A stretch of 64,000 bases of DNA, taken from assembly GCA_034522055.1 (NCBI GenBank), contig JAXHLS010000006.1, positions 248,001-312,000 of the forward strand, read 5' to 3'. Below, one piece after another: positions 28,341 to 59,842 of this stretch. The stretch is from Gammaproteobacteria bacterium (GTDB lineage Bacteria; Pseudomonadota; Gammaproteobacteria; JAABTG01). The translations under genes and the position numbers were made by a program. Position 1 is the first letter of the stretch; each line of letters begins with the position of its first letter. Below the pieces are notes generated by a model, which had not been told where the DNA came from, searched no databases, and saw only the letters and a program-made list of their open reading frames with translations.

Positions 28341-31300
28341 CCTGGGCGGGGATCATCAACGACAACGAGTTCTACTCCGAGCATTACCTCTCCGAGGTTT
28401 TTCTAGGCGACATCAAGGAGGCCATGGACCAGTGGCAGCAGGCCGAGACCGCGGCCCGCCAGACCGCCGAGGACTCCGGCAGGAAGGGCCAGCTCCCGGA
28501 CCACGAGCTGGCGCCGTGGAACCGTCTCGGCCGCATGGGCCACGCCTACGTCCAGGGGCTCTCCATGCTGGAGCGCGAGCGCGACCCGCAGCGCCGCGTG
28601 GAGGCCCAGCGGGAGCTGGTGCGGGAGTTGCTGTCGGCCCTGGGCTACGACTGGTCGCCGCGCCGGGTCCCTGCCGGCGACGAGGCGGAGTTCCCGGTGC
28701 TGGCGGAGTACCAGGATGCCACCGGTGCGCCGTTCTTGTGGGCGGTCCAGGCGGTGCCCCTGGAGGAGCCGGACACGGATCCCCTGGCCGTGCCTCTCCA
28801 GGAGCAGCAGTTCCTCACCCTGGGCCCCACGCCGGTGCCCAAGGTGCTGGCCGACGGTAGCGGCCTGGTGGACTGGCAGGGGGCGCTCGCCCGTTTCATC
28901 TTCGCCCAGCCTCGCCCGCCGCGCTGGGTGCTGCTGGCGAGCCCCCGCCAGTGGCTGTTGGTGGACCGCGCCAAGCTCGCCCAGGGCAGGGTGCTGCGCT
29001 TCGACTGGGTGGAACTCTTCACCCGCCGCGAGACCGAGGCCCTCAAGGCCGCCAGCGCCCTGGTGCACCGGGATTCCCTGGTGGCGGGTGACGGCCAGAG
29101 CCTGCTGGACACCCTGGAGGAGAGCGCTCACAAGCATGCCTACGGGGTCTCCGAAGACCTCAAGTACGCCTTGCGCGAGTGCATCGAGCTGCTGGGCAAC
29201 GAGGCCGCCGGCCAACTCATCGCCACCGCCCAGGCCCAGAAGAAGGGCATCTATTCGGGCCAGCTGGACCCGGGCCAGCTGAGCCTGGAATGCCTGCGCT
29301 ACATGTACCGGCTGCTGTTCCTCTTCTACATCGAGGCCCGCCCGGAGCTGGGTTACGCCCCCATGGCCTCGGAGACCTACCTCACCGGCTACAGCCTGGA
29401 CCACCTGCGGGAGCTGGAGCTGGTTTCCCTTACCCAATCTGCCGAGCAGCAGGGCCGCTACTTCCACGATTCCCTGCGGACCCTGTTCAGGCTGGTCCAC
29501 GAAGGCTATCAGCAGGCCCAGGGGGACCTGCTGGCCCGTAACACCGGTGGCGACGCCTTCACCATGGCGCCCCTGCCCTCCCATCTCTTCGACCCGGAGC
29601 GCACACCCCTTCTCAACCGGGTGGTGTTCACCAACGTCACCCTGCAGCAGATCATCCGCCTCATGTCCCTGTCCCGGCCGGCCAGGGGGCGCCGGCGGCG
29701 CGGGCGGATCTCCTACGCCCGCCTCGGCATCAACCAGCTGGGGGCCGTCTACGAGGCTCTGCTCTCCTACCGGGGGTTCTTTGCCACGGAAGACCTCTAC
29801 GAGGTCAAGCGTGCGGGCGACCCCAACCCGGATGCCCTGGACACCGGTTACTTCGTCAAGGCCGAAGAGATCGAGCGTTACAAGGACGGCGAGCGGGTCT
29901 ACGACCGCGACGAGGCCGGCCACCGCGTGTTGCGCCGTCACCCCAAAGGGCGGTTCCTGTACCGCCTGGCGGGGCGGGACCGCCAGAAGTCGGCGTCCTA
30001 CTATACCCCCGAGGTCCTCACCCGCAGCCTGGTGAAGTACGCCCTGGCCGAACTCTACAAGGAGCAGTTGGACCCGTTGCCCGATGATGCCGCCCGCGCC
30101 GAGCGGGTGCTCGGGCTCAAGATCTGCGAGCCGGCCATGGGCTCCGCGGCCTTCCTCAACGAGGCCATAGACCAACTCGCCGACAAGTACCTGGCCCTGG
30201 CCCAGAGCGCCCGGGATGAACGTATCAGCCAGGCCGACTATGCCCGCGAGAAACAACGGGTGAAGATGTTCATCGCCGACAACAATGTCTTCGGCGTGGA
30301 CCTCAACCCTGTGGCAGTGGAGTTGGCCGAGGTGTCCCTGTGGCTGAACGCCCTGTCCGCGGACCGCTTCGTGCCCTGGTTCGGCCTCCAGCTGGTGAAC
30401 GGCGATTCCCTCATCGGCGCCCGCCGCGAGACCTACCCGTCGTCGAGTCTCGCCAGGCGCGCGAGCGACCCCGAGTCCTGGCTCAAGTGCCCCCCGGAGC
30501 GCACCCCCCTGGGCCAGCCGCGGCCGGACGGCCGCGTATGGCATTTCCTCGTGCCCAACACCGGCATGGCCCGCTACACCGACAAGGTGGCGAAGGCCCT
30601 GCATCGCGAGGAGATCAAGGCCATGGACCGCTGGCGCCGGGAGTTCACCCGGCCGTTCTCCCGGGAGGAGCGGGAGCGCCTGGAGATCCTGTCCGCCCGC
30701 ATCGACGCCCTGTGGGACGAGCACGCCGCGAGCCTGGGCCGCCTGCGCGCGCGCACCACCGATCCTTACGGCGTCTACGGCCATGAGGCCAGTGGCACCC
30801 GGACCAGCCTTTCCTTCAAGGACGAGGCCCTGGCCGGCGAACTCTATGCCCTGTACCAGAAGAACGCTACGGCCTATCGCCGCCTCAAGCTCGCCATGGA
30901 CTACTGGTGCGCCCTGTGGTTCTGGCCCCTCGAGCGCCACGAGGACCTGCCGGACCGCGAGGAGTTCCTGTTCGACCTGGAGAACCTGCTGCTGGGTGAC
31001 ACCGTGGCCGCCGGCCCGAAGTACGAGGTGCGGGACCTGTTCCCGCCCACCCAGGACCAGGAGGAGGGCAGGCGCTTCATCAATCGCTTCGGGGTGGTGA
31101 ACCTGGAGGCCCTGTTCAAGGCTTTCCCGCGCCTCCGGCAGGCCCACGAAATGGCCGGCAGGCGCCGCTTCCTCCACTGGGAGCTGGAGTTCGCGGATAT
31201 CTTCGCCGGGCACGGCGGCTTCGACCTGGTGCTGGGGAATCCGCCGTGGATCAAGGTGGAGTGGGAGGAGAGCGGGGTGCTCGGCGACCACGAGCCCCTG

Positions 31301-33244
31301 TTCGTGCTGCGCAAGTTCACGGCCAGCAGGCTCAACGAGCTGCGGGAGGAAACCTTCCACCGCCTGCCAGAACTCGCCGCCGCCTGGCGGACCGAGTACG
31401 AGGAGGCGGAGGGGGCGCAGAACTTTTTAAACGCTCAGGTGAACTATCCCGAGCTGCGGGGAGTGCAGACTAACCTGTATAAGTGCTTCCTGCCACGCGC
31501 GTGGCATATTGGCAACGACCAGAGTATCGCGGGTTTTCTCCACCCGGAAGGGATTTACGACGATCCGAGAGGTGGCTCTTTTCGAACGGAGGTCTACTCA
31601 CGCCTGAAGGCACATTTTCAGTTCCAAAATGAAAGAAAGCTGTTCCCCATCGGTAATCGAAACACGTTCAGTATCAATCTTTATGGTTGTGATGCGCGTG
31701 ATATCCCAGACTTCATTACTTTGGCGAACCTATTTGCAGCTCGCACCATTGACTTCTGCATGAACCACGATGGCAGTGGTATCCCAGGCGGAATTAAGAC
31801 CGAGGACGGGTCTGATTGGAATGAGGAAGGCCATAGGGACCGGATCGTTCCTGTAAGCAAGAAAGAATTGGACCTTTTCGCACGCCTCTATGACGAGGAA
31901 GGCACTCCCGCCATGGAAGCACGACTGCCTACCCTGCATACCCGTCAGCTTCTTTCAGTGCTGGAGAAATTCGCCGCCCAGCCACGCCGGCTGGGGGACC
32001 TCAAGGGCGAGTACTTCTCCACGGTCATGTTCGACGAAACCTATGCGCAGCGAGACGGCACCATTCGCCGCGAGACTCGCTTCCCCAAGGATGCAAAGGA
32101 GTGGGTCCTCTCCGGTCCCCACTTCTTCGTCGGCAATCCCTTCTTCCAGACTCCAAAACGCGTATGTGAGACGCATCGAGCGTATGAGAGGCTAGACTTG
32201 GAGACTCTGCCCGACGACTACCTGCCTCGCACCAACTACGTCCCCGCCTGCTCGCCGGACGAGTATGCCGCGCGAACGCCGAAAGTGCCGTGGATCGAGC
32301 CGGGGGAGAGCGAGCCAAGGCGCGCAACGGAATGCTTCCGTGTCAACGTTAGTCGCGGACTAAGTCAATCTGGCGAGCGTACTCTTCAAGGCTCGCTGAT
32401 GCCTAAGCAGACGGCACACATAGACGGCGTGTTCAGTGTCGCGTTGAAGAGTTTGACCCTCGTTCCAATTCTAGCTTCACTTTGGGCTTCTCTACCCTTT
32501 GATTTCTTTGTAAAGACGACGGGGAAGAGTGATTTCAGAGGTGATCTTGCAAAATGGCTTGCTATTCCCTCTGAGGCGGAGGATTCAATCCCCCTTCTAG
32601 CGAGAATTTTGGTTCTCACGTGTCTGACCAAGCACTTCGCTGAGTTGTGGAAAGGTTCTTGGCGAGATGAATTTCGGAGTTCGTCCTGGGCGGTCGCATC
32701 TACGTCGGATGCAGCTATCCGCTTACCTGTCGAATTTTTTAGCGAACTCAGACCTGATTGGAACCGCCACTGCGCCCTCCGCACCGACTACTCCCGCCGC
32801 CAGGCCCTGTTGGAGATCGACGTCCTGGTAGCCCAGGCCCTGGGGCTCACCCTCGAAGAGTTGCTCACTGTCTACCGTGTCCAGTTCCCTGTCATGCGAC
32901 AGAACGAAGCCGATACCAGGTACGACATGAAGGGCCGCATCGTCTTCACCCCCAGCAAGGGCCTGGTGAACGTGGGGCTGCCGCGTAAGGCGCGGAAGAA
33001 GGACCCGGGGGATGGCATCCACTACGGCATCCAGGCCCCGGGCCGCACCGAGCAGGGCATCGCCCTCGGCTGGGAGGACGTGCGCGACATGAAGGAAGGC
33101 GTGGTCACGAAGATCTTCATGGACGATACCCTGCCCGGCGGACCGTTCGAGCGCACCGTGGAATACCACGCCCCCTTTTACCGCCCGGACCGGGAGCAGG
33201 ACTACCGGGTGGCCTGGGATTTTTTTCGGGACAATCGCCAATAG
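28337..33244 (+). CDS. Giant N6-adenine DNA methyltransferase, DrmMI-like
   Basis: A 1635-residue protein with a GTG start overlapping the SNF2 stop. SAM-binding motif I is CEPAMGSAAFLNEAI near residue 598, preceded by YYTPEVLTRSLVKYAL. The catalytic motif IV is GNPPWIKVEW at 968-971. The 370 residues between motifs I and IV form a large insertion. The N-terminal 250 residues are a separate alpha/beta domain, possibly nuclease-like as in type IIG enzymes, but I see no clear catalytic triad. Expected role: methylating host DNA to mark self. The C-terminal 50 residues are duplicated in diverged form at 36431-36580. Bases from about 31430 to 32750 are less GC-rich than the rest, so the target-recognition part may have been exchanged. 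Confidence 0.85.
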   Translation: MTWAGIINDNEFYSEHYLSEVFLGDIKEAMDQWQQAETAARQTAEDSGRKGQLPDHELAPWNRLGRMGHAYVQGLSMLERERDPQRRVEAQRELVRELLSALGYDWSPRRVPAGDEAEFPVLAEYQDATGAPFLWAVQAVPLEEPDTDPLAVPLQEQQFLTLGPTPVPKVLADGSGLVDWQGALARFIFAQPRPPRWVLLASPRQWLLVDRAKLAQGRVLRFDWVELFTRRETEALKAASALVHRDSLVAGDGQSLLDTLEESAHKHAYGVSEDLKYALRECIELLGNEAAGQLIATAQAQKKGIYSGQLDPGQLSLECLRYMYRLLFLFYIEARPELGYAPMASETYLTGYSLDHLRELELVSLTQSAEQQGRYFHDSLRTLFRLVHEGYQQAQGDLLARNTGGDAFTMAPLPSHLFDPERTPLLNRVVFTNVTLQQIIRLMSLSRPARGRRRRGRISYARLGINQLGAVYEALLSYRGFFATEDLYEVKRAGDPNPDALDTGYFVKAEEIERYKDGERVYDRDEAGHRVLRRHPKGRFLYRLAGRDRQKSASYYTPEVLTRSLVKYALAELYKEQLDPLPDDAARAERVLGLKICEPAMGSAAFLNEAIDQLADKYLALAQSARDERISQADYAREKQRVKMFIADNNVFGVDLNPVAVELAEVSLWLNALSADRFVPWFGLQLVNGDSLIGARRETYPSSSLARRASDPESWLKCPPERTPLGQPRPDGRVWHFLVPNTGMARYTDKVAKALHREEIKAMDRWRREFTRPFSREERERLEILSARIDALWDEHAASLGRLRARTTDPYGVYGHEASGTRTSLSFKDEALAGELYALYQKNATAYRRLKLAMDYWCALWFWPLERHEDLPDREEFLFDLENLLLGDTVAAGPKYEVRDLFPPTQDQEEGRRFINRFGVVNLEALFKAFPRLRQAHEMAGRRRFLHWELEFADIFAGHGGFDLVLGNPPWIKVEWEESGVLGDHEPLFVLRKFTASRLNELREETFHRLPELAAAWRTEYEEAEGAQNFLNAQVNYPELRGVQTNLYKCFLPRAWHIGNDQSIAGFLHPEGIYDDPRGGSFRTEVYSRLKAHFQFQNERKLFPIGNRNTFSINLYGCDARDIPDFITLANLFAARTIDFCMNHDGSGIPGGIKTEDGSDWNEEGHRDRIVPVSKKELDLFARLYDEEGTPAMEARLPTLHTRQLLSVLEKFAAQPRRLGDLKGEYFSTVMFDETYAQRDGTIRRETRFPKDAKEWVLSGPHFFVGNPFFQTPKRVCETHRAYERLDLETLPDDYLPRTNYVPACSPDEYAARTPKVPWIEPGESEPRRATECFRVNVSRGLSQSGERTLQGSLMPKQTAHIDGVFSVALKSLTLVPILASLWASLPFDFFVKTTGKSDFRGDLAKWLAIPSEAEDSIPLLARILVLTCLTKHFAELWKGSWRDEFRSSSWAVASTSDAAIRLPVEFFSELRPDWNRHCALRTDYSRRQALLEIDVLVAQALGLTLEELLTVYRVQFPVMRQNEADTRYDMKGRIVFTPSKGLVNVGLPRKARKKDPGDGIHYGIQAPGRTEQGIALGWEDVRDMKEGVVTKIFMDDTLPGGPFERTVEYHAPFYRPDREQDYRVAWDFFRDNRQ

Positions 33245-33304
33245 CGCCGAAACGGCGGGCGGCGATGCATGAGCAGGAAACCAAAGAATAGGACGAGATG
33301 ACAG

Positions 33305-33718
33305 ATGGACCCCAAGAGCGTTGATGAGTGGATGGCCGTGGCAAAGGAGCGACTTGAAGATGCTAGGGCGGTGAACCAAGGAGTGCCGAATTCCGTCGGC
33401 GCCGCTTATCTGGCAGGGTACGGTGTAGAGTGTGGTCTCAAGGCCTATTTAGATTTTCAAGAAACAGCGATCCCGAAAGGCCGAGATGGACATGACTTGC
33501 TGAATCTGATGCGTATGGCCGGGTTGCAACTGAGCAGAGCCGCCCCGGCACAAGATCAATCGTGGTTGATCGAGAATTGGAGCGTGGATTGGCGCTACCG
33601 TCGAATGGCCGACCCACCAATCACAAGCTCGAAGAAATGCGTGGAGGCGGCTGGAAAGCTTCAAGCCTATGTCAGTAAGTTGATCGCCCGCCAACGCAGT
33701 TCTAGGACTAGACGATGA
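33305..33718 (+). CDS. HEPN-domain-like protein, 137 aa
   Basis: A small helical protein. AAYLAGYGVECGLKAYL near residues 33-49 and GHDLLNLMRMAG are typical of HEPN proteins paired with nucleotidyltransferases or large ATPases. HEPN domains are often RNases or their partners in toxin-antitoxin and abortive-infection systems. The usual RX4-6H catalytic motif is not evident, so this copy may be a non-catalytic or atypical member. The stop overlaps the start of the next ATPase gene, so the two form a pair. It begins 60 bp after the methyltransferase stop. Confidence 0.7.
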   Translation: MDPKSVDEWMAVAKERLEDARAVNQGVPNSVGAAYLAGYGVECGLKAYLDFQETAIPKGRDGHDLLNLMRMAGLQLSRAAPAQDQSWLIENWSVDWRYRRMADPPITSSKKCVEAAGKLQAYVSKLIARQRSSRTRR

Positions 33719-36393
33719 TGACCCCAACAGAGATCGAGCAGCGAATTCGCAGGGCCCTAGAAAGTGAAGGAGTGGATCCCGATACTTTGAGGGTTGCAGC
33801 AGATCCATATGGCGGTTGGCAGGTTCGCATCGTAGCAGCGGGTTTCGAGGGGATGGCGGAAGGCGAACGACGCGGGCTGTTGCGGAACGCGATGGAGGGT
33901 GAGCCCCTGAGTTGGCGGCAGTTGTTAGCACCCGCAGAAGAGGCGGATGCCGAGTCGTTCCCGAGATCCGAGAACAAGTCCTTACCGCTCTGGCCGGAGA
34001 GCCTGGCGCGGGGCGCAGAACGCCGGTCGGAATCTCAGCTCGCGGTCTTTCTGAGTGACTGCCCCGAGGAACTCTCACGCCCTGTGACCGCTACTTTCTA
34101 TTCACTCCGTGGTGGTGTCGGGCGATCGACTGCCTTGGCAATTACCGCTCGGTTGCTTGCGGAGCAGGACCTGAAGGTCGTATGCCTGGACATGGACCTC
34201 GAGGCGCCCGGTCTGGCCTCCCTGTTCGGCGTCGAGGGGCAGCTCGGTGACCACCAAGGTATTGTTGAGCTGCTGCTGGCACTCGATCAGGGGCTTCAGC
34301 CGGACTTCCCGGACCATTTGTTGCCGGTGGATGAGAACGGCCGGTTGTTCTTGCTCCCGGCAGGCCTTCCCGGCGCCGCCTATGCGCGAAATCTGCGCCT
34401 ATTGGACCCGGCGGCCTGGTACACAGAGGATGAGAACCCGCTGCGCGACTTGCTAGATGGCGTACGAACGAAGCTGCCTTTCGTGCCGGATGTAGTGTTG
34501 ATCGACTCACGCACGGGTATTAGTGCGATCAGTGCGCCGCTCCTCTTCGAACAGGCGGATCTGGCAATGGTGTCGCTGTTCCCAAACGCGCAGGCCAAAC
34601 GAGGTACCGCAGCGCTCGTGGAAGGCCTATTGGCGGCGAGCAACCGCCGTGGCATGGAGTTTTACGGCCAAGCGGTTGGACCGGAAATCCGTTTTATCGT
34701 TGGCCCGTTACCGACCGGTTCGCCAGAGGTTCAAAAACGCCTATGGCACCGGGCCCTTGAATGGGTATCGGAGTGGATTGAGCCGGTACAGAAACCGCGG
34801 GTGTCAGCCGGCTTGCTGGAACTGGACGAAGCAGAAATGACCACTGCCGTCCCTTATCGGGAGGTAATAGCCGCGAGTGACGTGATCAACGAGTGGTCGA
34901 CTGACGTGGTCGACGAGGGGTCGACAACCGGTGGACCCTACGGGCGGGTCGCCGGCTGGATCAACGGCTTTCTGATGCCAAGTGTAGAGACAACGGAAGC
35001 ACCGTCAGATGCGACGACCAAAACGGATATTCTCGACGATCTGCAAGTAGAGACCGGTGCGGCCGAAGACCAAGAGGAGCTGCTGTCGGTATTCATCGAA
35101 ACTGATGTGGTGCGGCGGGCTCTCAAACCCGACTATCCGGTTATATTAGGGCGCAAGGGGACTGGCAAGACGGCGTTGTTCCGCAAACTGTCGGAGCTAC
35201 CCCCGAAAGGCACTGACTCCTCCATTGTGCATCCTCCACATGGCAGTGCAAAAAGAGAATGGCACTTGACTACTTCTGGGTTTCGCCGCGTTGACCAGGA
35301 GTTTGTCCAGACCGGCCGAATGACTTGGCAATCGTTCTGGGCAGCCTATCTCATTGTCGGTATCGTCAACTCAATGGATGAGGCCGAGCTGCCAAGCTCG
35401 CTTGAGCGGCCAAATGCGAGCCCGATAGGCGATGCCACGGCCTTACTGGACTGGCTAAAGTCCTTGTTGACTGATCCGAAGGCGGACCTGCTATTGGAGG
35501 AGGCGCTGCAATGGATCGATAAGCGTCTGGAACGTCCCCTTTACCTGGTTTGGGACGGCCTGGATGTTGGGTTCGGCAATGAGAGGGAGGACCGCGAACG
35601 GCGCGAGCGAGCCCTCGTTGGCCTGCTAGCGCTCATAATCGAGTGGGAAAAGCAGCTTCAAAACATCCGTTTCAAAATCATGCTTCGGGAGGATATCTGG
35701 CGTGATCTACGTTTTGAGAACAAAAGCCATCTCTACGGCCGATCTGTGGCCTTGCGCTGGAGCGATAAGATCACTTTCCTTAAGGTCTTGCTCAAACAGC
35801 TCTGGCGCTCAGACAAGCTCCGGGAGTATGTAGAGAGGAACATTCCGAAATCCAAACGGGTGGAGGATGTACCGGTGGAGGACTGGGGGGATCAGGACAC
35901 GGTTAACGTCTGGGAGCTTGTGGTCGGTGCCCGGATGAGCGGCGGCAACACTGCCTTCACCAGAAATTGGGTCTGGAAGCGTCTCGGCGATGCTAACGAC
36001 GACCACGCTCCCCGCCACCTGCTTCAGCTGTTCTCCAAGGCTATCGACTGGGAGAAGAACCAAGAGAAGACATCGTCTTATCAACGCAGTCTCATTCGGC
36101 CCAATACCCTGGTCAAGGTGCTGCCCGACGTCTCCAAGCAGGCGTTGGATGCCATGCTGGAGGAATTCAAGGAGCTGGAGCCGGTGTTCGATGCGCTTCG
36201 CGAAATCGGCAAAACGCCGTTCAACGCGGCCGAAGCCGATTCCGTTTCGGGCATGAATACGGAGCTGCTTGACCTTGCGCTGGAGGTCGGCCTTCTGGGT
36301 ATCCATGAAGGCACCGAGCGTGCTCCGGAGCGGTATCGCGTACCTGAACTCTATCGCCTGGGGCTTGGGATGGCCCGCAAGGGACAGGCATGA
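33715..36393 (+). CDS. ParA/MinD-like plus P-loop double ATPase
   Basis: An 892-residue protein with two nucleotide-binding parts. The first has a deviant Walker A, FYSLRGGVGRSTALAI at about residues 128-143, followed by VVCLDMDLEAPGLASLFG and DVVLIDSRTGIS. This is the KGGVGR-type ParA fold, with Arg in place of the first signature Lys. The second has a classical P-loop, ILGRKGTGKTALFRKL near residue 480, and a Walker B-like LYLVWDGLDVGFGNE near 610, resembling Sll1717-type STAND-like ATPases. It overlaps the HEPN gene by four bases. Probable role: sensor/switch ATPase controlling the HEPN partner. Function is inferred only. Confidence 0.7.
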   Translation: MMTPTEIEQRIRRALESEGVDPDTLRVAADPYGGWQVRIVAAGFEGMAEGERRGLLRNAMEGEPLSWRQLLAPAEEADAESFPRSENKSLPLWPESLARGAERRSESQLAVFLSDCPEELSRPVTATFYSLRGGVGRSTALAITARLLAEQDLKVVCLDMDLEAPGLASLFGVEGQLGDHQGIVELLLALDQGLQPDFPDHLLPVDENGRLFLLPAGLPGAAYARNLRLLDPAAWYTEDENPLRDLLDGVRTKLPFVPDVVLIDSRTGISAISAPLLFEQADLAMVSLFPNAQAKRGTAALVEGLLAASNRRGMEFYGQAVGPEIRFIVGPLPTGSPEVQKRLWHRALEWVSEWIEPVQKPRVSAGLLELDEAEMTTAVPYREVIAASDVINEWSTDVVDEGSTTGGPYGRVAGWINGFLMPSVETTEAPSDATTKTDILDDLQVETGAAEDQEELLSVFIETDVVRRALKPDYPVILGRKGTGKTALFRKLSELPPKGTDSSIVHPPHGSAKREWHLTTSGFRRVDQEFVQTGRMTWQSFWAAYLIVGIVNSMDEAELPSSLERPNASPIGDATALLDWLKSLLTDPKADLLLEEALQWIDKRLERPLYLVWDGLDVGFGNEREDRERRERALVGLLALIIEWEKQLQNIRFKIMLREDIWRDLRFENKSHLYGRSVALRWSDKITFLKVLLKQLWRSDKLREYVERNIPKSKRVEDVPVEDWGDQDTVNVWELVVGARMSGGNTAFTRNWVWKRLGDANDDHAPRHLLQLFSKAIDWEKNQEKTSSYQRSLIRPNTLVKVLPDVSKQALDAMLEEFKELEPVFDALREIGKTPFNAAEADSVSGMNTELLDLALEVGLLGIHEGTERAPERYRVPELYRLGLGMARKGQA

Positions 36394-36430
36394 ATGCCCA
36401 GTTGATGTGTCATCGGTATCTACGGCCCCC

Positions 36431-36580
36431 GGCTGGGGGGACGTGAAAAACCTGGAGGAAGATACCATCACCGAGAAGCTCAGGGACAACACCCTCGCCG
36501 GCGGCCCCGTGGAGAGCAGCGTGGCCTACCACGCCCCCTTCTACCACCCGGATCGGGCGCAGGACTACCGCACAGCCTGA
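36431..36580 (+). pseudogene. Relic of a second methyltransferase C-terminus
   Basis: Fifty codons read GWGDVKNLEEDTITEKL .. NTLAGGPVESSVAYHAPFY .. PDRAQDYR then stop. The C-terminus of the methyltransferase gene at 28337 reads GWEDVRDMKEGVVTKIF .. DTLPGGPFERTVEYHAPFY .. PDREQDYR. About 60% of aligned residues are identical. No start or upstream part remains; the previous gene ends at 36393. I interpret it as the 3' end of a related but distinct methyltransferase gene left after recombination. Confidence 0.8.
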
Positions 36581-36623
36581 GCCATCTTCCAGCAACGCCA
36601 TTCCGAGAGCTGAAGGAGACGTC

Positions 36624-36815
36624 ATGTTCCAACCGGGCACCTGGGTCCAGACGCACCCGGGCCGAGTCCAAGCGGAGGGCCGCCCGCCGGGCGGGATGAG
36701 GGGCCAGTCAGACACCGGCTCGGCGGCTGGCTTACGCCCCCCTCACCCCGGCCCGCTCTCCCGGCGGCGAGACGGTGCCAGTGGGTTGCGGCTTGTTTCC
36801 GTCCTGGGGGGATGA
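36624..36815 (+). CDS. Possible small ORF between relic and giant helicase, 63 aa
   Basis: ATG at 36624 follows gaaggagacgtc, a good ribosome site, and opens MFQPGTWVQTHPGRVQAEGR. The rest is Pro/Gly/Arg-rich and looks untranslated or degraded. It may be a relic like its neighbour or a leader peptide for the giant helicase gene, which starts five bases after its stop. Confidence 0.3.
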   Translation: MFQPGTWVQTHPGRVQAEGRPPGGMRGQSDTGSAAGLRPPHPGPLSRRRDGASGLRLVSVLGG

Positions 36816-36819
36816 ACTG

Positions 36820-39800
36820 ATGCTGCCCTCCGTCGTCGCCAGCGAACTCCAGGACGCCATCCGCCGCTTTCTGCAGGCCACCTTCCCCATGACTACCCCG
36901 GGTTTCCGGCGTGACGACGGCAGCACCATGCTGGACGATCTGCTGGCGGATCCGCGGGCCCTCTTCCGGGGTCCCTACCTCAGCCTGGGGCTGCCTTTTC
37001 GCCGGATGGGGGAGGGTGATGAGTTGCCCTTCGAGTACCTGGAGCTATCCTTCACACCCTACCGCCATCAGCAACGGGCCTTCCAGCGCCTGTGCGGCCC
37101 GAGCCCCCACTCAACCCTGGTGGCCACGGGTACCGGCTCCGGCAAGACCGAATGCTTCATGTTGCCCATCCTGGACTACTGCGCCGGACAGAAGGGCCAG
37201 GGCGTCAAGGCCATCGTTATCTATCCCATGAACGCCTTGGCCACCGATCAGGCACGGCGCTTCGCCCGGGAGATCCATAACCGCCAAGGCCTTCGAGGCA
37301 AGGTGAGTGTGGGGCTCTACGTAGGCGACCAGGAGCGGACGCCCCGGAAAACTATGGCGCCGGACGACGTGATCACCTGCAAGGAAACGCTGCGGGAGTA
37401 TCCCCCGGACATCCTGCTCACCAATTACAAGATGCTGGATTTCCTGCTCATGCGCCCCCGGGACCAGCGCCTGTGGCGCTTCAACGAGCCGGGAAGGCTG
37501 CGCTACCTGGTGGTGGACGAGTTGCACACCTTCGATGGTGCCCAGGGAACCGATCTGGCATGCCTGATCCGCCGCCTGCGGGACCGCCTGGTGCCCCAGG
37601 CGGACCTGGCCTGTGTGGGTACCTCGGCCACCCTGGGCGGCGCCAGCGCGGCCCGGGAATTGGTGCACTACGCCGAGCGGGTGTTCGCCGGCCCCTTCGG
37701 CGAGGACGCGGTGATTCTGGAGGATCGCCAGACGGCGGATGAGTTCCTGGGCGAAGCGCCAGTAGAATTCACCGAGTGGCCCACCAGCGGCGTCAACCGG
37801 GCCATCCGCCCGGAACTCCACGACTCCGCGGTCGATTACCTGCGCGCCCAGGCATTGCTTTGGTTTGGTGCCGCGGCCCCCGAGCTGGATGCGTCAGAGC
37901 CGACAGGGGCAACGAAGGCGCGCTTCGATCTGGGGAACCGCCTCAAGGAATGTGCCGCCTTCAGGGAGCTGGTCTCCCGCGCCAATTCCATCATAGACAT
38001 CGGGCCCCTGCTGGCGGAGTGGGAGGCCCGGTTCCGAATCGGCCCTACCCAGGCCCGACAGATGCTGGAGAGCCTGCTGGCACTGGTCTCCTGGGCGCTT
38101 AGGGCCAAGACGCCGGGTGTCGAACCGGGAGGTGAGGATGACGGCGGGCCATTGGTGGATGTGCGCGCCCAGTTGTGGCTGCGGGAGCTGAGCCGCCTGG
38201 TGGCCGTCGTAGGCCGGCGGCCGACCCTCCACTTCGCCGATGATCTGACGGAGCTGACGAGCCCGCTCCACCTGCCGGCCGTGCACTGCCGGGAATGTCA
38301 TGCCACGGGCTGGGTATCGGTGCGTGAGCCCAGCGAGGGCCGTCTGGAATCTGACCTCCAGACCATCTATCGGGCCTACTTCGCCCGCCATCCTGATGTC
38401 TCATTGTTGTTTCCCCTGGACAATGATCCACCCACCGGCGAGATCAAGGGCATCGATGCTCTCGCCTGCCCGCAGTGCGGGCAGATCTTCTCCAGGCGCG
38501 ACGCCGACGCCTGCCCGCAGTGTGGCGCCGGGGAGGTTGTCCGGGTGTGGGAGCCCAACATGCGCCGGACCGTAAGCAGGGGCGACCAGAACCAGCAGCG
38601 CAGCCATCACGACTGCCCGTTCTGTGCTGCCGCCGAGGGCCTGAGCCTCATCGGCTCCCGCGCGGCATCGCTTTCCAGCGTGCTTATCGGCAAGCTTTTC
38701 GCCACGCCCTACAATGACCACCGCAAGCTGATCGCCTTTTCCGACGCAGTCCAGGATGCTGCCCATCGGGCCGGCTTTTTCGGGGCCCGCACCTACAGCA
38801 CCCTGGTGCGGTCGGCCATCGCCCGTTTTATCCATGCCCAGGGCGAGGGCATGCCGCTGTCCATGGTGGCGGCGGAAACCCCACGCTACTGGCGCAACCA
38901 CGTTGCTGATGACGAGACCTTCGTGGGTACCTTCATCGCACCCAACATGGAGTGGCTGAGAGGCTACGAGCGCTTGCGGGAAGATGGACATTTGCCCACC
39001 CCCAGCGACCTGCCACAACTGGTGGAGGAGCGTCTGACCTGGGAGGTCTTGCAGGGCTTCGGACTGCGGGCACGCATCGGCCGCACCCTGGAGCGTTCCC
39101 TCACCGCGGCGGTAGGGGTGGACGAGAATACCCTGCGGGAGAGCGCGCGCCGGCTCGCCACGCGGCTTGGCGAGGAGATCGGCACCCTGCGCGGCCTTGG
39201 CGAGGAACCCACTTATCGGTTCCTGCAAGGGCTGTTGTGGCGGCTGCGGGTACAGGGGGCCTTCTACCATCCGCTGCTGGACGGTTATATCCAGGCCCGG
39301 GGCAAGCCCTACGAACTCTACCGAACGCCTCAGATGCCCAACTATGGTGGCGCCGCGCGGCCGCCGGCGCTGGTCACCCTGGCCCGGCTTTGTGATTCCT
39401 TCACGGCGCTCCACCACGAGGGCCAGTCCTGGTATTACGGCTGGTTCAACAAGGTGATGGCGCTCGATGAGGCCGTGCTGGCCTCCGCCGAGTATCGCCA
39501 GGTGATGTCTCTGACGGTGGAGCACCTGACCCGCGACGATTACCTGGTGGAGCGCCACACCACCGGCGAGTCGGTTTGGGGGCTGAACCCGGGACAATGG
39601 ATCTGCACCACGGCCGTGGACGACTTGGCCTGTCATCGTTGCGGCCACCGCATCCAGGTGCCGCGGGAGGACCGCGCCGCATGGCAGGATATGCCTTGCC
39701 TGCGCGCCGCCTGCGCAGGCGCCTACCAGCCTGCCCCTGCCGGCCGCCCCGAGCGCGTCATCGGGGCCGGCCCGCCTCACCGGCTGGTGCCTGCGGAGCA

Positions 39801-42800
39801 CACTGGCCTACTGGACGCGGACCTCCGCCACGAGGTGGAGCAATCCTTCATGCGCGGCACCGCGGCCTGGGATGTCAACCTGCTGTCGGCAACTCCCACC
39901 CTGGAGATGGGAATCGACATCGGGGACCTGTCCAGCGTGCTGCTGTGCTCGGTGCCTCCCGCCCAGGCCAATTACCTGCAACGGATCGGGCGTGCCGGCC
40001 GGCGGGACGGTAACGCCCTGACCGTCACGGTCGCCAATGCCCATAAGCACGACCTCTATTTCTTCTCCGATCCTCTCGCCATGCTGGCCGGCGAAGTGCG
40101 TCCCCCGGGCGTTTTCCTGGAGGCCACCGCCGTGCTGGAACGACAGCTCATCGCCTATTGCTTCGACCGCTGGGCGGCCACCGGCATCGATGATACCGCC
40201 ATCCCGGGTCAACTGCGGGTCGTCCTGGATGGGTTGGAGGCCACGGGCGGGGAACGTTTCCCCCAGTCTTTACTGCAATTCATCGAGGGCGCAAGGGCCG
40301 ATATCCTGCGCGGGTTCCTCGCACTATTCCCCGACCTCACCGAAGAAGCCCAGGAGCCTCTTCGTGCCTTTCTTTATGGTACCAAGGACAAGTCGGGGCT
40401 CGCCCATCGACTGACAAACCGTCTCTATCAGTTGGTGGACGAGCGCCATAGCCTCACCAAGCGCATAGACCGCCTGAAGGATCAGAAGAAGCGCCTGGAA
40501 AACCAACCCCAGGACGAGGCCGTGCGGGAGGAATTGGACGGTTTGGAGGCGGAGCGCGGTGCCTTGCAGGCCCTGCGGCGGCGCATGAACGCCAAGCCTA
40601 CCCTGAATTTCTTTACCGATGAGGGCCTGCTGCCGAACTACGCCTTTCCCGAGGAGGGCGTGACCATCAATTCGGTGATCCTGCGGCGAATTAGCCAGGC
40701 GGAACGCACCGGCGATGATGCGGGCCAGCGGTACGAGCGCATCAACTTCCAGATGCAGCGCCCCGCCCAAGCCGCCCTGAGCGAGCTGGCTCCCCTCAGT
40801 CGCTTCTACGCCGTAGGACGGGAGGTGGAGATCGACCAAGTGGACCTGTCGGTCAGCCAGACCCAGGAGTGGCGACTGTGCGACCGCTGCCACTACACCG
40901 AGAATCTGGCGGAGAGCGGTGATCCCCACAGCGTGTGCCCCCGTTGTGGCAGCCCCCAGTGGGCGGACGCTGGCCGCAAGCGTACCCTGCTGAGGTTGCG
41001 CCAGGTGTTCGCGACCGCCGATGACCGCACGAGCCGCATCGGTGATGACAGCGATCAGCGGGCGCCCTCGTTCTTCAACCGCCAGATGCTGGTGGACGTG
41101 CCGCCGGGTTCCGCGACCCACGCCTATCGGTTGGCGGCCGAGCAGTTGCCCTTCGGTTTCGAGTACGTGCCGCGGATGCGACTGCGGGAGATCAACTTCG
41201 GCCAGCCGGAAGGCCAAGCCGAGGAATTCGCCGTGGCCGGAGAATTCAGTTCCCGGCCCGGCTTTCAACTCTGTCGCCATTGCGGCAAGGTGCGCCGCAA
41301 CGCCCGCGGCCGGCGTCCCACGTTCCAGCATGCCTATGATTGCCGCCTGCGCCGGCCCGGTGCGCAGGAGAAGGACGAGGACTACTTCGACAGCCTCTAC
41401 CTGTTTCGTGAGTTGGAGTCTGAGGCAGTCCGCATCCTCCTGCCCCTGGCGGAAGTGGGGACGTCCGGCAAACGCCTGCACTCCCTGATCGCCGCCTTGA
41501 GCCTCGGCCTGCGCCGTTACTTCCGGGGCAATGTGGACCATATCCAGCTGGCCCACCATTCCGAGCCCACGGGTGGCGAGAGCCGCAAGCACTACCTGGT
41601 GCTTTACGACAGCGTGCCGGGGGGAACGGGCTATCTCAAGGAGTTGTTGAGAAGACCGGAGAACCTGATGGCGCTCCTGCAGGGGGCCTATGACGTCATC
41701 AGCCGCTGTGGGTGCCGGGAGGAGGAGGGCAGGGATGGTTGCTACCAGTGCCTGCTCGCCTATCGGGAGAGTCGCAGGATGGACGAGATCTCCCGCCAGG
41801 CGGCCGAGGAGATCCTTGCGAAGATCCTGGCCGAGGCGGATACCCTTCAGCCCATCGATGGTCTGGGATCCGTGGACATCAACGCGCTCCTGGAGAGCGA
41901 GTTGGAGCAGCGCCTGGTGAACGCCCTGGGCAACGCGCCGGGCGTGACGTTGTCGCCCGAGTTAGTCAATGGCAAGCCGGGCTTCTTCCTGACCATTGGC
42001 GGCCCGGGTACCGGATTCGAGCGCGCCGCCGCCTGGAAGGTGGAGCCCCAGGTCAACCTGGGGCCGGCCCACGGCGTCGCCACCAATGTGAAGCCGGACT
42101 TCGTCCTGTGGCCGTTACGCGAGCGGCCCGGGCTGCTGCCCGTTGCGATTTTCGCGGATGGTTTTCAATACCACTATGCCAAGCTCGCCGACGACACCCT
42201 GAAGCGCCAGGGCCTGTTGGACAGTGGGAGGTTCCGCGTCTGGAGTCTGGGCTGGCATAACCTGCCCATCGCCGGCATGAAGCAAATGAACCCCGCCGAG
42301 CATCTGCTGAAGACCGGCCAGCAGTCCATGATGCAAGAGCTCTGGAGCAGGCTGGCCGCGCAGGGGGGTTGGTCCCATTACATGGAGTACTCGAGCTTTA
42401 TTGCCGAGGGCCCCTTTCGCTGGCTGCTCGCGTACCTCAGCGCTAGCGACGATGCGCTCGACCGGCTCCGGCATGCCGCGCTCTCCCGCACCATCGGCTG
42501 GCTGGACCCGCGGAGCCGTCGGGACCCCGAATACCGGCGGGCGATGCTCGCGGAACTCTCCACCCAACTGCCGGGCCACGTACACGAGTGGCTGGGCAGA
42601 ACTTCAGAGGATCCGTCGCTACTCGGGGGCATGCTGGCGGCCGCAGGGACCTTGGAAGGCGAGATTCGTGCAGTGTGCCGGCTGCCGTATAGCGCCATGG
42701 AGCAGGCCAAGCAAGGGGTACTCGAGCCACTGTGCGGAGAGGTGTCCGTACATGTGGCCATCGATGACGTCCATGCCCGCCAGGACAAGGACTTCGAGGG

Positions 42801-43236
42801 TGTGTGGAGTGGCTTCTGGGGTTGCGCCAACCTGTTGCAGTTCCTCCCCGCCTTGACCCTGTCGTCAGCCACCGGGGTGACACAGGGCATCTATCCTATT
42901 TGGACAACGCCGCCCAAGGGTGAGGTGGCGGCTGCAGGACAGTCGGAAGCAGCGGATGGCAACTGGCGGGAGGTGGCCGACCTGTCCGTATTCGGCGAGG
43001 CCATCCTGTTGCTGAAGGCGCAGGGGCTGCCACCCCCCGAGGTCGGTGTCGAGCTGCTAGATGGCTCCGGCGAGGTGCTGCCCGAGCTGGAGTTGGCATG
43101 GCGGGACCAGCGCCTCGCGGTAGTGGAAGAGCTGGGTTCAGATGCACAAAAAACGTATGAGCAGATGGGCTGGACCCTGTTCGTAGGGCTCGACGAGACG
43201 GTCGCCCGGGAGCTGGCGGGGCGGCTCGGTGAATAA
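36820..43236 (+). CDS. Giant DEAD-box helicase with DUF1998 and C-terminal nuclease-like domain (DruE-like)
   Basis: A 2138-residue protein. Motif I is ATGTGSGKTECFMLP at about residues 102-116, the Walker B variant is DELH at 233-236, and motif VI YLQRIGRAGRRDG lies near 1050. Zn-ribbon-like Cys pairs occur near 490-600 (CRECH, CPQCG twice, CPFC) and again near 1355-1490. The DUF1998/MZB region has YLVLYDSVPGGTGYLKEL and GCYQCLLAYRESR near 1590-1650. From about 1758 the segment KPDFVLWP .. VAIFADGFQYHYAKLADD .. GLLDSGRFRVWSLGW resembles an MTES/DUF559-type endonuclease fold. Size and order recall DruE of Druantia, or a fusion of DrmA and DrmB. I chose 36820, where a G-rich site precedes the ATG. 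Probable role: DNA unwinding and cleavage in defence. Confidence 0.82.
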   Translation: MLPSVVASELQDAIRRFLQATFPMTTPGFRRDDGSTMLDDLLADPRALFRGPYLSLGLPFRRMGEGDELPFEYLELSFTPYRHQQRAFQRLCGPSPHSTLVATGTGSGKTECFMLPILDYCAGQKGQGVKAIVIYPMNALATDQARRFAREIHNRQGLRGKVSVGLYVGDQERTPRKTMAPDDVITCKETLREYPPDILLTNYKMLDFLLMRPRDQRLWRFNEPGRLRYLVVDELHTFDGAQGTDLACLIRRLRDRLVPQADLACVGTSATLGGASAARELVHYAERVFAGPFGEDAVILEDRQTADEFLGEAPVEFTEWPTSGVNRAIRPELHDSAVDYLRAQALLWFGAAAPELDASEPTGATKARFDLGNRLKECAAFRELVSRANSIIDIGPLLAEWEARFRIGPTQARQMLESLLALVSWALRAKTPGVEPGGEDDGGPLVDVRAQLWLRELSRLVAVVGRRPTLHFADDLTELTSPLHLPAVHCRECHATGWVSVREPSEGRLESDLQTIYRAYFARHPDVSLLFPLDNDPPTGEIKGIDALACPQCGQIFSRRDADACPQCGAGEVVRVWEPNMRRTVSRGDQNQQRSHHDCPFCAAAEGLSLIGSRAASLSSVLIGKLFATPYNDHRKLIAFSDAVQDAAHRAGFFGARTYSTLVRSAIARFIHAQGEGMPLSMVAAETPRYWRNHVADDETFVGTFIAPNMEWLRGYERLREDGHLPTPSDLPQLVEERLTWEVLQGFGLRARIGRTLERSLTAAVGVDENTLRESARRLATRLGEEIGTLRGLGEEPTYRFLQGLLWRLRVQGAFYHPLLDGYIQARGKPYELYRTPQMPNYGGAARPPALVTLARLCDSFTALHHEGQSWYYGWFNKVMALDEAVLASAEYRQVMSLTVEHLTRDDYLVERHTTGESVWGLNPGQWICTTAVDDLACHRCGHRIQVPREDRAAWQDMPCLRAACAGAYQPAPAGRPERVIGAGPPHRLVPAEHTGLLDADLRHEVEQSFMRGTAAWDVNLLSATPTLEMGIDIGDLSSVLLCSVPPAQANYLQRIGRAGRRDGNALTVTVANAHKHDLYFFSDPLAMLAGEVRPPGVFLEATAVLERQLIAYCFDRWAATGIDDTAIPGQLRVVLDGLEATGGERFPQSLLQFIEGARADILRGFLALFPDLTEEAQEPLRAFLYGTKDKSGLAHRLTNRLYQLVDERHSLTKRIDRLKDQKKRLENQPQDEAVREELDGLEAERGALQALRRRMNAKPTLNFFTDEGLLPNYAFPEEGVTINSVILRRISQAERTGDDAGQRYERINFQMQRPAQAALSELAPLSRFYAVGREVEIDQVDLSVSQTQEWRLCDRCHYTENLAESGDPHSVCPRCGSPQWADAGRKRTLLRLRQVFATADDRTSRIGDDSDQRAPSFFNRQMLVDVPPGSATHAYRLAAEQLPFGFEYVPRMRLREINFGQPEGQAEEFAVAGEFSSRPGFQLCRHCGKVRRNARGRRPTFQHAYDCRLRRPGAQEKDEDYFDSLYLFRELESEAVRILLPLAEVGTSGKRLHSLIAALSLGLRRYFRGNVDHIQLAHHSEPTGGESRKHYLVLYDSVPGGTGYLKELLRRPENLMALLQGAYDVISRCGCREEEGRDGCYQCLLAYRESRRMDEISRQAAEEILAKILAEADTLQPIDGLGSVDINALLESELEQRLVNALGNAPGVTLSPELVNGKPGFFLTIGGPGTGFERAAAWKVEPQVNLGPAHGVATNVKPDFVLWPLRERPGLLPVAIFADGFQYHYAKLADDTLKRQGLLDSGRFRVWSLGWHNLPIAGMKQMNPAEHLLKTGQQSMMQELWSRLAAQGGWSHYMEYSSFIAEGPFRWLLAYLSASDDALDRLRHAALSRTIGWLDPRSRRDPEYRRAMLAELSTQLPGHVHEWLGRTSEDPSLLGGMLAAAGTLEGEIRAVCRLPYSAMEQAKQGVLEPLCGEVSVHVAIDDVHARQDKDFEGVWSGFWGCANLLQFLPALTLSSATGVTQGIYPIWTTPPKGEVAAAGQSEAADGNWREVADLSVFGEAILLLKAQGLPPPEVGVELLDGSGEVLPELELAWRDQRLAVVEELGSDAQKTYEQMGWTLFVGLDETVARELAGRLGE

Positions 43237-43268
43237 ATGGCACAAGAAGGAGCAGGAGGGTGAATGAA

Positions 43269-45386
43269 ATGAAGCCGATGGTGGCCATCTACGACGACTT
43301 CCTGGAGGCCTATGCCGCCATCCCCAAGGCTCAACAGAAGAAGGTGATGAGCTTCGTCACCAAGTTCCGGCATGGCCCGTTCAGCTCCGGCATCAACTAC
43401 GAGAAGATCAACGACGCCGCCGATCCGAACTTCCGATCCGTTCGCATCGACCAGGACTACCGCGGGATTGTGCTGAGCCCCGAGCAGGGCAACGTCTACA
43501 TCCTGCTGTGGGTGGCCAAGCACGATGATGCCTACGATTGGGCCCGGAACCATACCTGCCAGGTGCATCCCGAGACCGGCAGCCTCCAGCTATTCGAGTC
43601 GGCAACCGAAAGTGCCTTGGCCCCCGATGCCGCGAAGCCCGACGCGGACACGGCGCCACCCCTTTTCGATCTGCGTGACCGGGAGCTTCTGCGCCTGGGT
43701 ATACCGGAGAATCGGCTCGACTTGGTCAAGTCCCTGCGTACGGAAGAAGCGCTGGAGGCCATCGAAGATCAGCTGCCCGTGGATGCGTTCGAGGCCCTGT
43801 ACCTGATCGCGGCAGGGAGCGACCCAGAAGAGATCATGCAGGAGTATGCGGCAAAACAGGCCGTGGATACCTCGGACTTCGCAGCTGCCCTGCAGCGGAA
43901 CCAGTCCCAGCGCAGCTTCTGTGTGGTAGAGGATGACAAGGAGCTGGAAGCCATGCTCTCCGCGCCCCTGGAGAAGTGGCGCGTGTTCCTGCATCCCTCC
44001 CAGCGGCGTCTTGTGGAGTGGAACACCAACGGCCCGATCCGGGTGCTGGGTGGGGCCGGAACAGGCAAGACAGTGGTGGCCATGCACCGCACCCGCTGGC
44101 TGGTGCGCCAGGTGCTGGCTGCCACCGACAAGAGGGTCCTGTTCACCACCTTCACGGCCAATCTGGCCACCGACATCAAGGAGAACCTGCGCAAGATCAT
44201 GAAGCCGGAGGACCTGCAACGGGTGGAAGTGACCCACGTGGACCAGTGGGTGAGCCGGTTTCTGAAGCAGCACAAGTATCCGCACCAGATCGTCTACGAC
44301 AGCCAGCAGAAGTACAGGAGATGCTGGCAGTTGGCGATGGACGCGAAGCCAGCCGAGCCCGACTTGCCCGAGAGCTTCTTCAAGGAGGAGTGGGAGCGAA
44401 TCATCCTCCACCAGCGGATCACCGACCGCAAGGAGTACTTCCAGGCCAAGCGCACGGGACGTGGAGTAGCCCTCACGCGCGCGCAGCGCGCCGCTATCTG
44501 GCCAGTCTTCGAGGAGATGAGGATTCAGCTCCACCAGAAGGGCCTGCGCACCATAGAGGACGCGACCCAGGACGCTGCGGACCTGCTGGACGGCGGCCAA
44601 GCCTATCCACCCTTCGCCGCCGTGGTGGTGGACGAGGCCCAGGACATGGGCCCGGAGGTCATGCGCCTGATCCGCAGGCTGGCGCCAAAGGGAGGAAACG
44701 ACCTGTTCATCGTCGGTGACGGGCATCAGAGAATCTACCGCCGCCGCTACGCCCTGAGCGCCTGTGGCATCGAGGTGCGAGGGCGCAGCCGCAAGCTTAG
44801 GATCAACTACCGGACCACAGAGGAAACCCGCCGGTTCGCGGTTTCCGTGCTGGAAGACCAGCCGGTGGACGACCTCGACGACGGCACTGACACCGAGTCC
44901 GGCTACCGCTCACTGATGCATGGTGAGCCCCCCCAGGTGAAAGGGTTCTCGACGCAGGCGGAAGAGTTCGAGTGGCTGGCGGAAGAGATAGGACGCCTCC
45001 ATCAAGCCGGCGAGCCCCTGAAGAACATCTGTATCGTTGCACGCACCAATGCCCTACTGGAGGCCTACGAGGCCGCGCTGCAGGAGCGTGGCATAGCGTG
45101 CGCCCGACTGAGCCGCAAACAGCCCGACGACCGCAACAGGGAGGGAGTGCGCCTGGCAACGATGCACCGGGTAAAGGGCCTGGAGTTCCGCTACGTGATC
45201 ATCGTCGCGGTAAACCACGACATTATCCCGCTGCGCCATGCGGTCCAGAGCACGGAGGATCCCACCGAGCAGCGCGCCACTGAGCTAACCGAGAGGGCCC
45301 TGTTGCACGTATCCGCGACGCGAGCGATTAATGCGCTGGCGGTCACTTATTACGGGGCGCCAAGTCCGTTTTTACACGAGAGTTAG
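43269..45386 (+). CDS. UvrD/Rep-type helicase with RelE/ParE-fold N-terminus
   Basis: A 705-residue protein. Residues 1-95 (YDDFLEAYAAIPKAQQKKV .. RSVRIDQDYRGIVL .. YILLWVAKHDDAYDWA) have the strand/helix pattern of RelE/ParE toxins. A superfamily 1 helicase follows: Walker A RVLGGAGTGKTVVAM near 258-272, DEAQ at 455-458 (VVVDEAQDMGPE), then FIVGDGHQRIYRRRY, and MHRVKGLEFRYVII near 630. I prefer the ATG at 43269, with ggagg ten bases upstream, over a GTG at 43260. It ends the defence-type operon 32 bp after the giant helicase gene. The toxin-like domain may act on ribosome-bound mRNA or may only be a binding module. Confidence 0.85.
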   Translation: MKPMVAIYDDFLEAYAAIPKAQQKKVMSFVTKFRHGPFSSGINYEKINDAADPNFRSVRIDQDYRGIVLSPEQGNVYILLWVAKHDDAYDWARNHTCQVHPETGSLQLFESATESALAPDAAKPDADTAPPLFDLRDRELLRLGIPENRLDLVKSLRTEEALEAIEDQLPVDAFEALYLIAAGSDPEEIMQEYAAKQAVDTSDFAAALQRNQSQRSFCVVEDDKELEAMLSAPLEKWRVFLHPSQRRLVEWNTNGPIRVLGGAGTGKTVVAMHRTRWLVRQVLAATDKRVLFTTFTANLATDIKENLRKIMKPEDLQRVEVTHVDQWVSRFLKQHKYPHQIVYDSQQKYRRCWQLAMDAKPAEPDLPESFFKEEWERIILHQRITDRKEYFQAKRTGRGVALTRAQRAAIWPVFEEMRIQLHQKGLRTIEDATQDAADLLDGGQAYPPFAAVVVDEAQDMGPEVMRLIRRLAPKGGNDLFIVGDGHQRIYRRRYALSACGIEVRGRSRKLRINYRTTEETRRFAVSVLEDQPVDDLDDGTDTESGYRSLMHGEPPQVKGFSTQAEEFEWLAEEIGRLHQAGEPLKNICIVARTNALLEAYEAALQERGIACARLSRKQPDDRNREGVRLATMHRVKGLEFRYVIIVAVNHDIIPLRHAVQSTEDPTEQRATELTERALLHVSATRAINALAVTYYGAPSPFLHES

Positions 45387-58807: not shown

Positions 58808-59842
58808 CTGTCTCAACGGCCCCTCTTCATCTACCCGATTCCGGCACTCTTGTCACCGGTTGCTCGCGGCCGCCCGCCTGCCGGCTCAGCGACTGATTGG
58901 CCTACCAATCAATCCTTCGCCAGATATGCGCGGGTTTTTACAGCCAGCTACACCTCACCGTACCGGATCGATGTGGTGACGTTCTCGCTCGAAACCCGGC
59001 ACGGCATCTGGGTGGCCCAGGCGCCCATCAAGCCGAAGGGCGTCTCAAAGAAGCGGCGGACCTTCGCCATGCCGGAATTCCGGCTATTCACCGAGGCAGA
59101 AGGGCGGTTCGTGGATCTATTGCCGGAGAAGGACGGGGAGAACAGAGCGGCGGGCGGGCTGCATTAGGCCGCTGCGACCATGGCGTAGGCGGTACACTGG
59201 GGATCATTGCCGAAGGCGCCGAGCACCAGCGCGCTATAAATGCGCCGTTGCAGGAGATCGGCCGACACCGGGCGCGTACGGCGCGGTAGTAGCCGTTGGC
59301 GCAGTTCTCCACCGCGGATCTGCCCAGTTCAGCCGCCGAGCGGCGGGGATGTCCCACTCGCTGCGCCGCAGGCTCGCCATTTCGGGTGGGTCGACAGGCG
59401 GGGATATTCGCAGCATAGTGTGCATGACTCCGGTAAGGTTGGTCGCTCAGGTGCTTTTACCTGCGGTAACAGCATGCCGATATAAACCTGAGGCGATCAG
59501 GAGGATAGGCAAGCAAGCATCTCGGAGGCAGAAGGAATCCCGTTCTCTTTTTGGGTCGGTTCTTCTATGACCGAAACCGTCTCCCGGCGGGCTCGTCGGC
59601 TAAAATCGCTTTTCAGGACGGAGCGCCCCATTTCCAGATAGAACGTTTCGTTACAACCGCCATGTCTTAGCTCAGTGTTCTGAACAACGGCCGATCACAG
59701 TATTTGTATCGCCGAAGTGATTTGCTATTAGGTAATCGATGAAGTGTTTCTATTAAAGTTTATGAGCACCCCAAACAACGGCGGGGATAGCTACGGTGCA
59801 CAACGCAAGGACGTTCTCGAAAGACGTTAGGTGCCAACAAGT
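58808..59842. other. Intergenic region with gene debris before the DUF3644 gene
   Basis: A frame around 58910-59167 reads SPYRIDVVTFSLETRHGIWV and then KKRRTFAMPEFRLFTEAEGR, which looks like a protein remnant without a proper start. The rest, up to 59842, shows no gene; the last 250 bp are AT-richer and probably contain the promoter of the DUF3644 gene. Confidence 0.4.

Follow-up and report, generated by a model that had tools for sequence, protein, structure and literature searches.

A relic of a methyltransferase gene tail marks a recurrently refilled cargo slot in an ARMADA Type II defense operon

ARMADA Type II, as defined in the preprint of Bell et al. 2025 (PMC12458937), consists of a BrxHII/RapA-like helicase, a PglX-like methyltransferase, a YprA-like helicase and a UvrD/GajB-like helicase encoded in this order, and the main text of the preprint stresses strict gene order, whereas the related operons analyzed here have a cargo slot at the armB-armC junction. 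The main text of the preprint contains no mention that we could find of such a slot, of nested systems or of gene scars in ARMADA, and, relative to that text, the slot and the scars described below appear to be undescribed so far. A precedent for extra defense genes inside a larger defense operon, beside a PglX-type methyltransferase, is BREX, where BrxU is encoded between brxC and pglX (PMC8565348) and auxiliary nucleases are present in many core loci (PMC12839542). Several of the ARMADA cargos are, like BrxU, GmrSD-type enzymes. Unlike in BREX, however, it is one junction that serves as the slot in ARMADA, whole multi-gene systems are nested in it, and fragments of core genes record the swaps.

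The window, that is, the entire 64,000-nt stretch of DNA analyzed (contig JAXHLS010000006.1 of the Gammaproteobacteria assembly GCA_034522055.1, positions 248,001 to 312,000), encodes all four core genes on the forward strand. The first, armA (25464..28340), encodes an SNF2/RapA-like helicase of the BrxHII/DrmD-like kind (PADLOC DrmD, E 1.7e-94, and BrxHII; Pfam SNF2), and is followed by armB (28337..33244), an intact gene for a PglX/Eco57I-type adenine methyltransferase (PADLOC type IIG/DrmMI; Pfam Eco57I) that is 40–67% identical to armB of related operons. The giant helicase gene armC (36820..43236), whose start we placed at ATG 36820 rather than GTG 36775 based on homology with the related locus L003, encodes a YprA-like protein with a DUF1998/MZB-type zinc region, close to DruE of Druantia (PADLOC DruE, E 4.4e-99). 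In the last place is armD (43260..45386), coding for a UvrD/GajB-like helicase (Pfam UvrD) and kept adjoining armC in related operons; at the ArmD N-terminus, where a RelE-like RNase domain would be looked for, there is no Pfam match before residue 245. Because the gene set and order are those of ARMADA Type II, the operon is assigned to this type. The E. coli ARMADA loci are matched by the Enterobacter locus L019, which falls within the armC tree of the window, a tree built without a Druantia or Type I outgroup. Two other assignments were considered and rejected: Druantia, in which DruE is accompanied by DruH, DruABCD or DruMFG partners, since the partners here are the DrmD-like, methyltransferase and UvrD genes; and DISARM class 1, which has separate drmA, drmB (DUF1998) and drmC (PLD) genes, since here the helicase and the MZB region are one protein and a UvrD gene is last. 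Elsewhere in the same neighborhood, a DUF3644 protein (59831-61153) with a weak restriction-endonuclease-like C-terminal match is possibly the product of another defense gene.

The armB and armC genes of the window are separated by a cargo slot (33245..36802, +), beyond which sequence homologous to L003 (the closest relative, 88%) starts again at 36803. The longest direct repeat between positions 28000 and 42000 connects 33062-33216 with 36425-36579, spanning 155 nt without gaps at 74% identity and a spacing of 3363 nt. Its upstream copy belongs to the intact armB tail (33062..33241, +), and its downstream copy to a relic of that tail (36425..36613, +) that has neither a head nor a start. When the methyltransferase was used to query the complete 5.14-Mb genome, the only matches were the gene itself and the relic (residues 1575-1632, E 3.4e-14), and there is no other methyltransferase part beside the relic, which is also matched by the family profile of the armB C-terminus (E 4.6e-16). 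Translated in frame, the relic gives APGWGDVKNLEEDTITEKLRDNTLAGGPVESSVAYHAPFYHPDRAQDYRTA*AIFQQRHSES*, with 57% amino acid identity to the intact tail over 51 codons; TGA (36578-36580) stands in place of a Trp conserved without exception in the 22 relatives of alignment A1, and beyond this internal stop the tail homology extends to the old stop at 36611-36613. A resemblance due to chance or convergence has a negligible probability, given the genome-wide E-value and a score of 67.7 bits for the relic with the tail profile, against a best chance score of 5.7 bits when 45 slots were codon-shuffled 20 times. The initial annotation, which had described a headless match of about 60% to the methyltransferase end at 36431-36580, was thus right about the similarity, the absence of any upstream part and the reality of the relic, but took the internal stop for its end.

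The differences between the relic and the intact tail are spread evenly over the codon positions (13/12/15 across 51 codons), whereas functional tails at a similar distance show a third-position excess, for example, 5/6/23. This even distribution indicates that the relic is a dead copy, in our reading a recombination scar that would have no function of its own and would be drifting neutrally. Moreover, GC3 is equal in the two tails of the window (0.85 and 0.86), which, together with the even codon-position pattern, suggests that they were near-identical relatives or copies when they were separated, making a distant donor of the tail unlikely. These features would be accounted for equally well if the relic were a second copy of the resident armB tail, arising when DNA with armB 3' homology, either circular or tandemly duplicated, integrated by a single crossover, so that a tail came to lie on each side of the cargo and later deletions trimmed the far one, with no second allele involved; for the window, we consider this a fair but less likely alternative, because in two other operons described below the tails point to two functional alleles.

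Immediately upstream of the relic, a 12-codon frame (36390..36424, +; MNAQLMCHRYLR) that overlaps the stop of the preceding ATPase gene in an ATGA arrangement is a possible stub of a further cargo gene, cut at the joint, as inferred from parallel scars; no homologue of it was found. Directly after the old stop of the relic, there is an open frame beginning with MFQPGTWVQTHPGRVQ (36624-36816) that is preceded by a good ribosome-binding site; for the frame MFQPGTWVQTHPGR downstream of the relic, no convincing homologue was found in the related loci compared.

The slot of the window is occupied by two genes. The first (33305..33718, +) encodes a small protein that resembles PDC-M28A according to PADLOC only (E 1.7e-4) and has no Pfam, NCBIfam or PDB match; we refer to it as a putative HEPN protein based on this weak match and its position beside an ATPase gene. 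The second (33715..36393, +) encodes a fused ATPase in which a KGGVGR ParA-like AAA domain is joined to a P-loop ATPase of the Sll1717 family. The pair contains all the components of the PADLOC candidate system PDC-M28, that is, a HEPN-like A gene (weakly, 1.7e-4) and the B (4e-24) and C (4.4e-16) ATPase parts, but with the B and C parts fused and the pair located inside ARMADA. We infer that it may act as an ATPase-gated RNase-type effector. A HEPN/ParA-ATPase pair standing alone, in the same gene order, is found on a plasmid of Nostoc sp. UHCC 0870 (L113), although the similarity is partial (29% for the ATPase over 96%). Across 369 genomes of the class, only partial matches were found outside the window, and a tblastn search (1e-3) detected no relatives of the pair in other ARMADA slots. 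In the order, no closer relatives of the operon were found in the 5 genomes searched.

The pair differs in composition from its surroundings, with GC3 values of 0.58 and 0.67 compared to 0.81–0.92 for armA, the 5' part of armB, both tails, armC and armD, and L003, whose contig stops before armB, has a different gene where the window has the pair. Together with the lone pair on the Nostoc plasmid, these observations suggest that the HEPN-ATPase pair was inserted later, in agreement with the initial proposal that it was brought in and the old tail left behind. The other part of that proposal, import of a new SNF2/methyltransferase head, is not supported by the composition, which is uniform across the core genes and both tails. 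Within the core, only an armB segment (31400..32740, +) deviates, with a GC3 of 0.605 compared to 0.92 and 0.85 in the flanking segments. This segment overlaps weakly conserved parts of the gene, and the corresponding region cannot be aligned between close Halomonas operons; it is a second foreign island, probably a target-recognition swap, and lies apart from the cargo, with the conserved armB tail block in between.

We explored the armB-armC junction in 80 loci with armC relatives, selected by similarity to the armC of the window rather than at random, and about 60 related operons were compared in the slot analysis. In 13 of the fetched loci, armB and armC abut or are at most 200 nt apart, and armB directly precedes armC also in the viral contig L163 and in an Aulosira (cyanobacterial) plasmid, where the two genes overlap by 4 nt. 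In E. coli, 501 of the 519 genomes with a match contain most of a junction-spanning query; no insertion between armB and armC was found among the matches listed, and the two loci examined are plain armABCD. These arrangements bear out the suggestion in the initial annotation that the giant helicase gene was once immediately preceded by a methyltransferase gene. In the remaining loci, by contrast, 0.7–10 kb of cargo lies between armB and armC. Gaps larger than 500 nt are present at 43 of the 56 armB-armC junctions but only at 2 of the 30 armA-armB and 1 of the 57 armC-armD junctions, and thus armB-armC is a specific cargo slot. It has been refilled recurrently: in the armC tree, the distribution of filled and empty states requires 8 changes, at least 6 of which are forced by well-supported branches.

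The cargo is diverse: its 140 ORFs, predicted with a simple length cutoff on loci that are mostly draft contigs, fall into 99 clusters, and 67 Pfam families occur among 82 proteins. It is mostly oriented like the operon, and 41 of the 45 slots have a GC content below that of armC (p 1e-8). As predicted by PADLOC, the slots encode zorA-zorB-zorE of Zorya II (L015, with clustered relatives in L011, L014, L021, L026, L041 and L076), gajA-gajB of Gabija (L050), HamB of Hma (L152), AbiE (L079) and AbiEii (L044), AbiL-like ATPases (L045 and L053), TmtA (L031 and L162) and DRT3b (L016). Thus, judging from these gene assignments, the cargo consists of unrelated and often complete defense systems. Closely related operons differ in content while their flanks remain homologous. 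In the Halomonas loci L015, L017, L026 and L041, the final ~590 nt of armB are 84–93% identical and armC-armD 74–81% in direct comparisons, but the cargo differs, except in L015 and L041, which have most of it in common. Likewise, L034 and L038 share 8.7 kb at 92% identity but have different cargo. In most pairs of operons, homology picks up again near the start of armC.

The window relic is one of several such scars; neither these parallels nor the recurrence of the slot had been noticed in the initial annotation. When the armB-tail profile was run over the 45 slots, it detected tails in L152 (107.6 bits), L079 (77.7), the window and, at 12.1 bits, L054, where the scar is short. A whole-genome search confirmed the tails in L152 (genome G391) and L079 (G416), whereas that in L054 (G402) is weak, with an E-value of 0.5 for 3.8 Mb, but falls inside the slot. 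The viral contig L162 carries a fifth armB-tail scar (41 bits). Mirror-image scars, in which a head of armC lies in the slot, are present in L074 (106.5 and 79.9 bits) and, in a short form, in L041 (6.7 bits against a control of 2.8), the latter being 71% identical over 125 nt to the armC head of L015. Two further candidates were rejected: the armC-head match in the L050 slot (8.6 bits), which is the Walker motif of GajB, and a split tail match in L012, which is an in-frame insertion within one open frame. This armB tail of L012 (2953-3366; a Nitrococcus MAG) contains an insertion of repetitive sequence.

The joints of these scars have a recurring structure. In L079, part of a recQ-like gene is fused to the tail (NTPILATTAMANNR, then TILDDTLPG), and the homologue of this gene in L078 is intact and directly follows armB. 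The L152 tail is preceded by the first 22 codons of an ATPase with an intact homologue within the same slot. In L162, L054 and the window, the tail is preceded by a short stub that starts at the stop of the preceding gene, with an ATGA-type overlap in L054 and the window; no homologues of these three stubs are known. The two tails of L152 and L079 differ mainly at third codon positions (2/2/15 and 2/5/14, respectively), indicating that two functional alleles met before one was orphaned, in contrast to what duplication of an operon's own tail would yield. In L151, Zorya II lies outside ARMADA. An armB tail immediately precedes its zorA, and the 19.9-kb stretch contains no further ARMADA gene; zorE was called by PADLOC, and zorA and zorB were recognized from their resemblance and location. 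A small match to ArmC in L151 falls inside zorE, owing to a C-terminal domain common to ArmC and ZorE. The region (L151 12365-17841) comprises zorA, zorB, zorE and a GmrSD/DUF262-type gene.

Two additional explanations can be evaluated against this set of scars. Leftover tails might be retained for a function, either as a small peptide interfering with ArmB or as a DNA signal, and in L162, L152 and L054 the tail is indeed part of an open frame whose start coincides with, or lies close to, the stop of the gene before it. Nevertheless, the window relic has no start, carries a stop at the invariant Trp and shows neutral differences, and tails are absent from most filled slots, so that we regard retention for a function as highly improbable. 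The cargo is flanked precisely by two copies of a gene end, which is also reminiscent of tRNA-targeting islands, as if an element had integrated site-specifically into the 3' end of armB and the tail were the duplicated attachment site. This scenario appears scarcely credible because the duplicated part varies from ~24 to ~150 codons with different start points, no integrase or transposase is found among the 25 commonest cargo Pfam families, and armC-head scars exist too.

The explanation that we favor, with a probability of roughly 0.8, is that the HEPN-ATPase pair was inserted at the armB-armC junction, that the relic is the displaced armB tail, and that the slot is refilled by module swapping. 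Under this scenario, in an earlier version of the operon, armB would have directly preceded armC. DNA with armB-side homology followed by the HEPN-ATPase pair would then have recombined into the 3' end of armB, and the far end of the incoming DNA would have been joined inside the resident armB tail without long homology, yielding the order armB, HEPN, ATPase, possibly the truncated start of another cargo gene, the dead tail of armB, and armC. The Trp codon of the relic would have mutated to a stop afterwards. A crossover in armB combined with illegitimate joining at the far end is suggested by the joints between cargo stubs and core-gene tails and by the conserved armB C-terminal block beside the slot. 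Such homology-facilitated illegitimate recombination is a known laboratory route of DNA uptake (PMC3240628), and one homologous plus one illegitimate end would produce stub/tail joints of the kind from which we deduce this route here. More generally, the slot would be refilled repeatedly through exchanges within the conserved C-terminal block of armB and the head of armC, which introduce entire defense modules that share the operon. The benefit of the slot would presumably be co-expression and co-transfer with ARMADA.

Refilling of a single ARMADA II junction with whole systems, while its flanks remain homologous, shows where and how a widespread defense system gains weapons. The gene fragments record individual swaps, making module exchange in defense operons countable and datable, and the content between armB and armC can serve as a guide to new defense genes. 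The findings also raise the idea that nested systems cooperate with the host operon, which fits the reported conserved array of Zorya II, Druantia III and ARMADA II in E. coli. A speculative extension, which we consider doubtful, is that the armB-armC junction is a dedicated bay for interchangeable effectors, in which nested systems (Zorya II, Gabija, HEPN-ATPase) cooperate with ARMADA, partly via a Vsr-like domain, and which evolves by tail and head recombination that leaves scars.

A C-terminal domain of ~65 residues (PxPEVG..LELAWP..K....GW) in ArmC (window 42997-43182, residues about 2060-2121) is common to the cargo proteins ZorE, GmrSD-type enzymes and TmtA (L015 8748-9866, L015 3874-6111, L031 5079-9995 and L151 14232-15332); the C-terminal domains of ArmC are termed Vsr-like in the main text of the preprint (PMC12458937). 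A profile of this domain built from cargo proteins matches ArmC at an E-value of about 1e-13, and the L003 cargo gene upstream of armC seems to encode it as well. Finally, an IMG/VR viral-contig record (L161) and a bacterial MAG contig (L061) are 99% identical in the ARMADA region, with long overlapping open frames in the slot, and may represent the same element.
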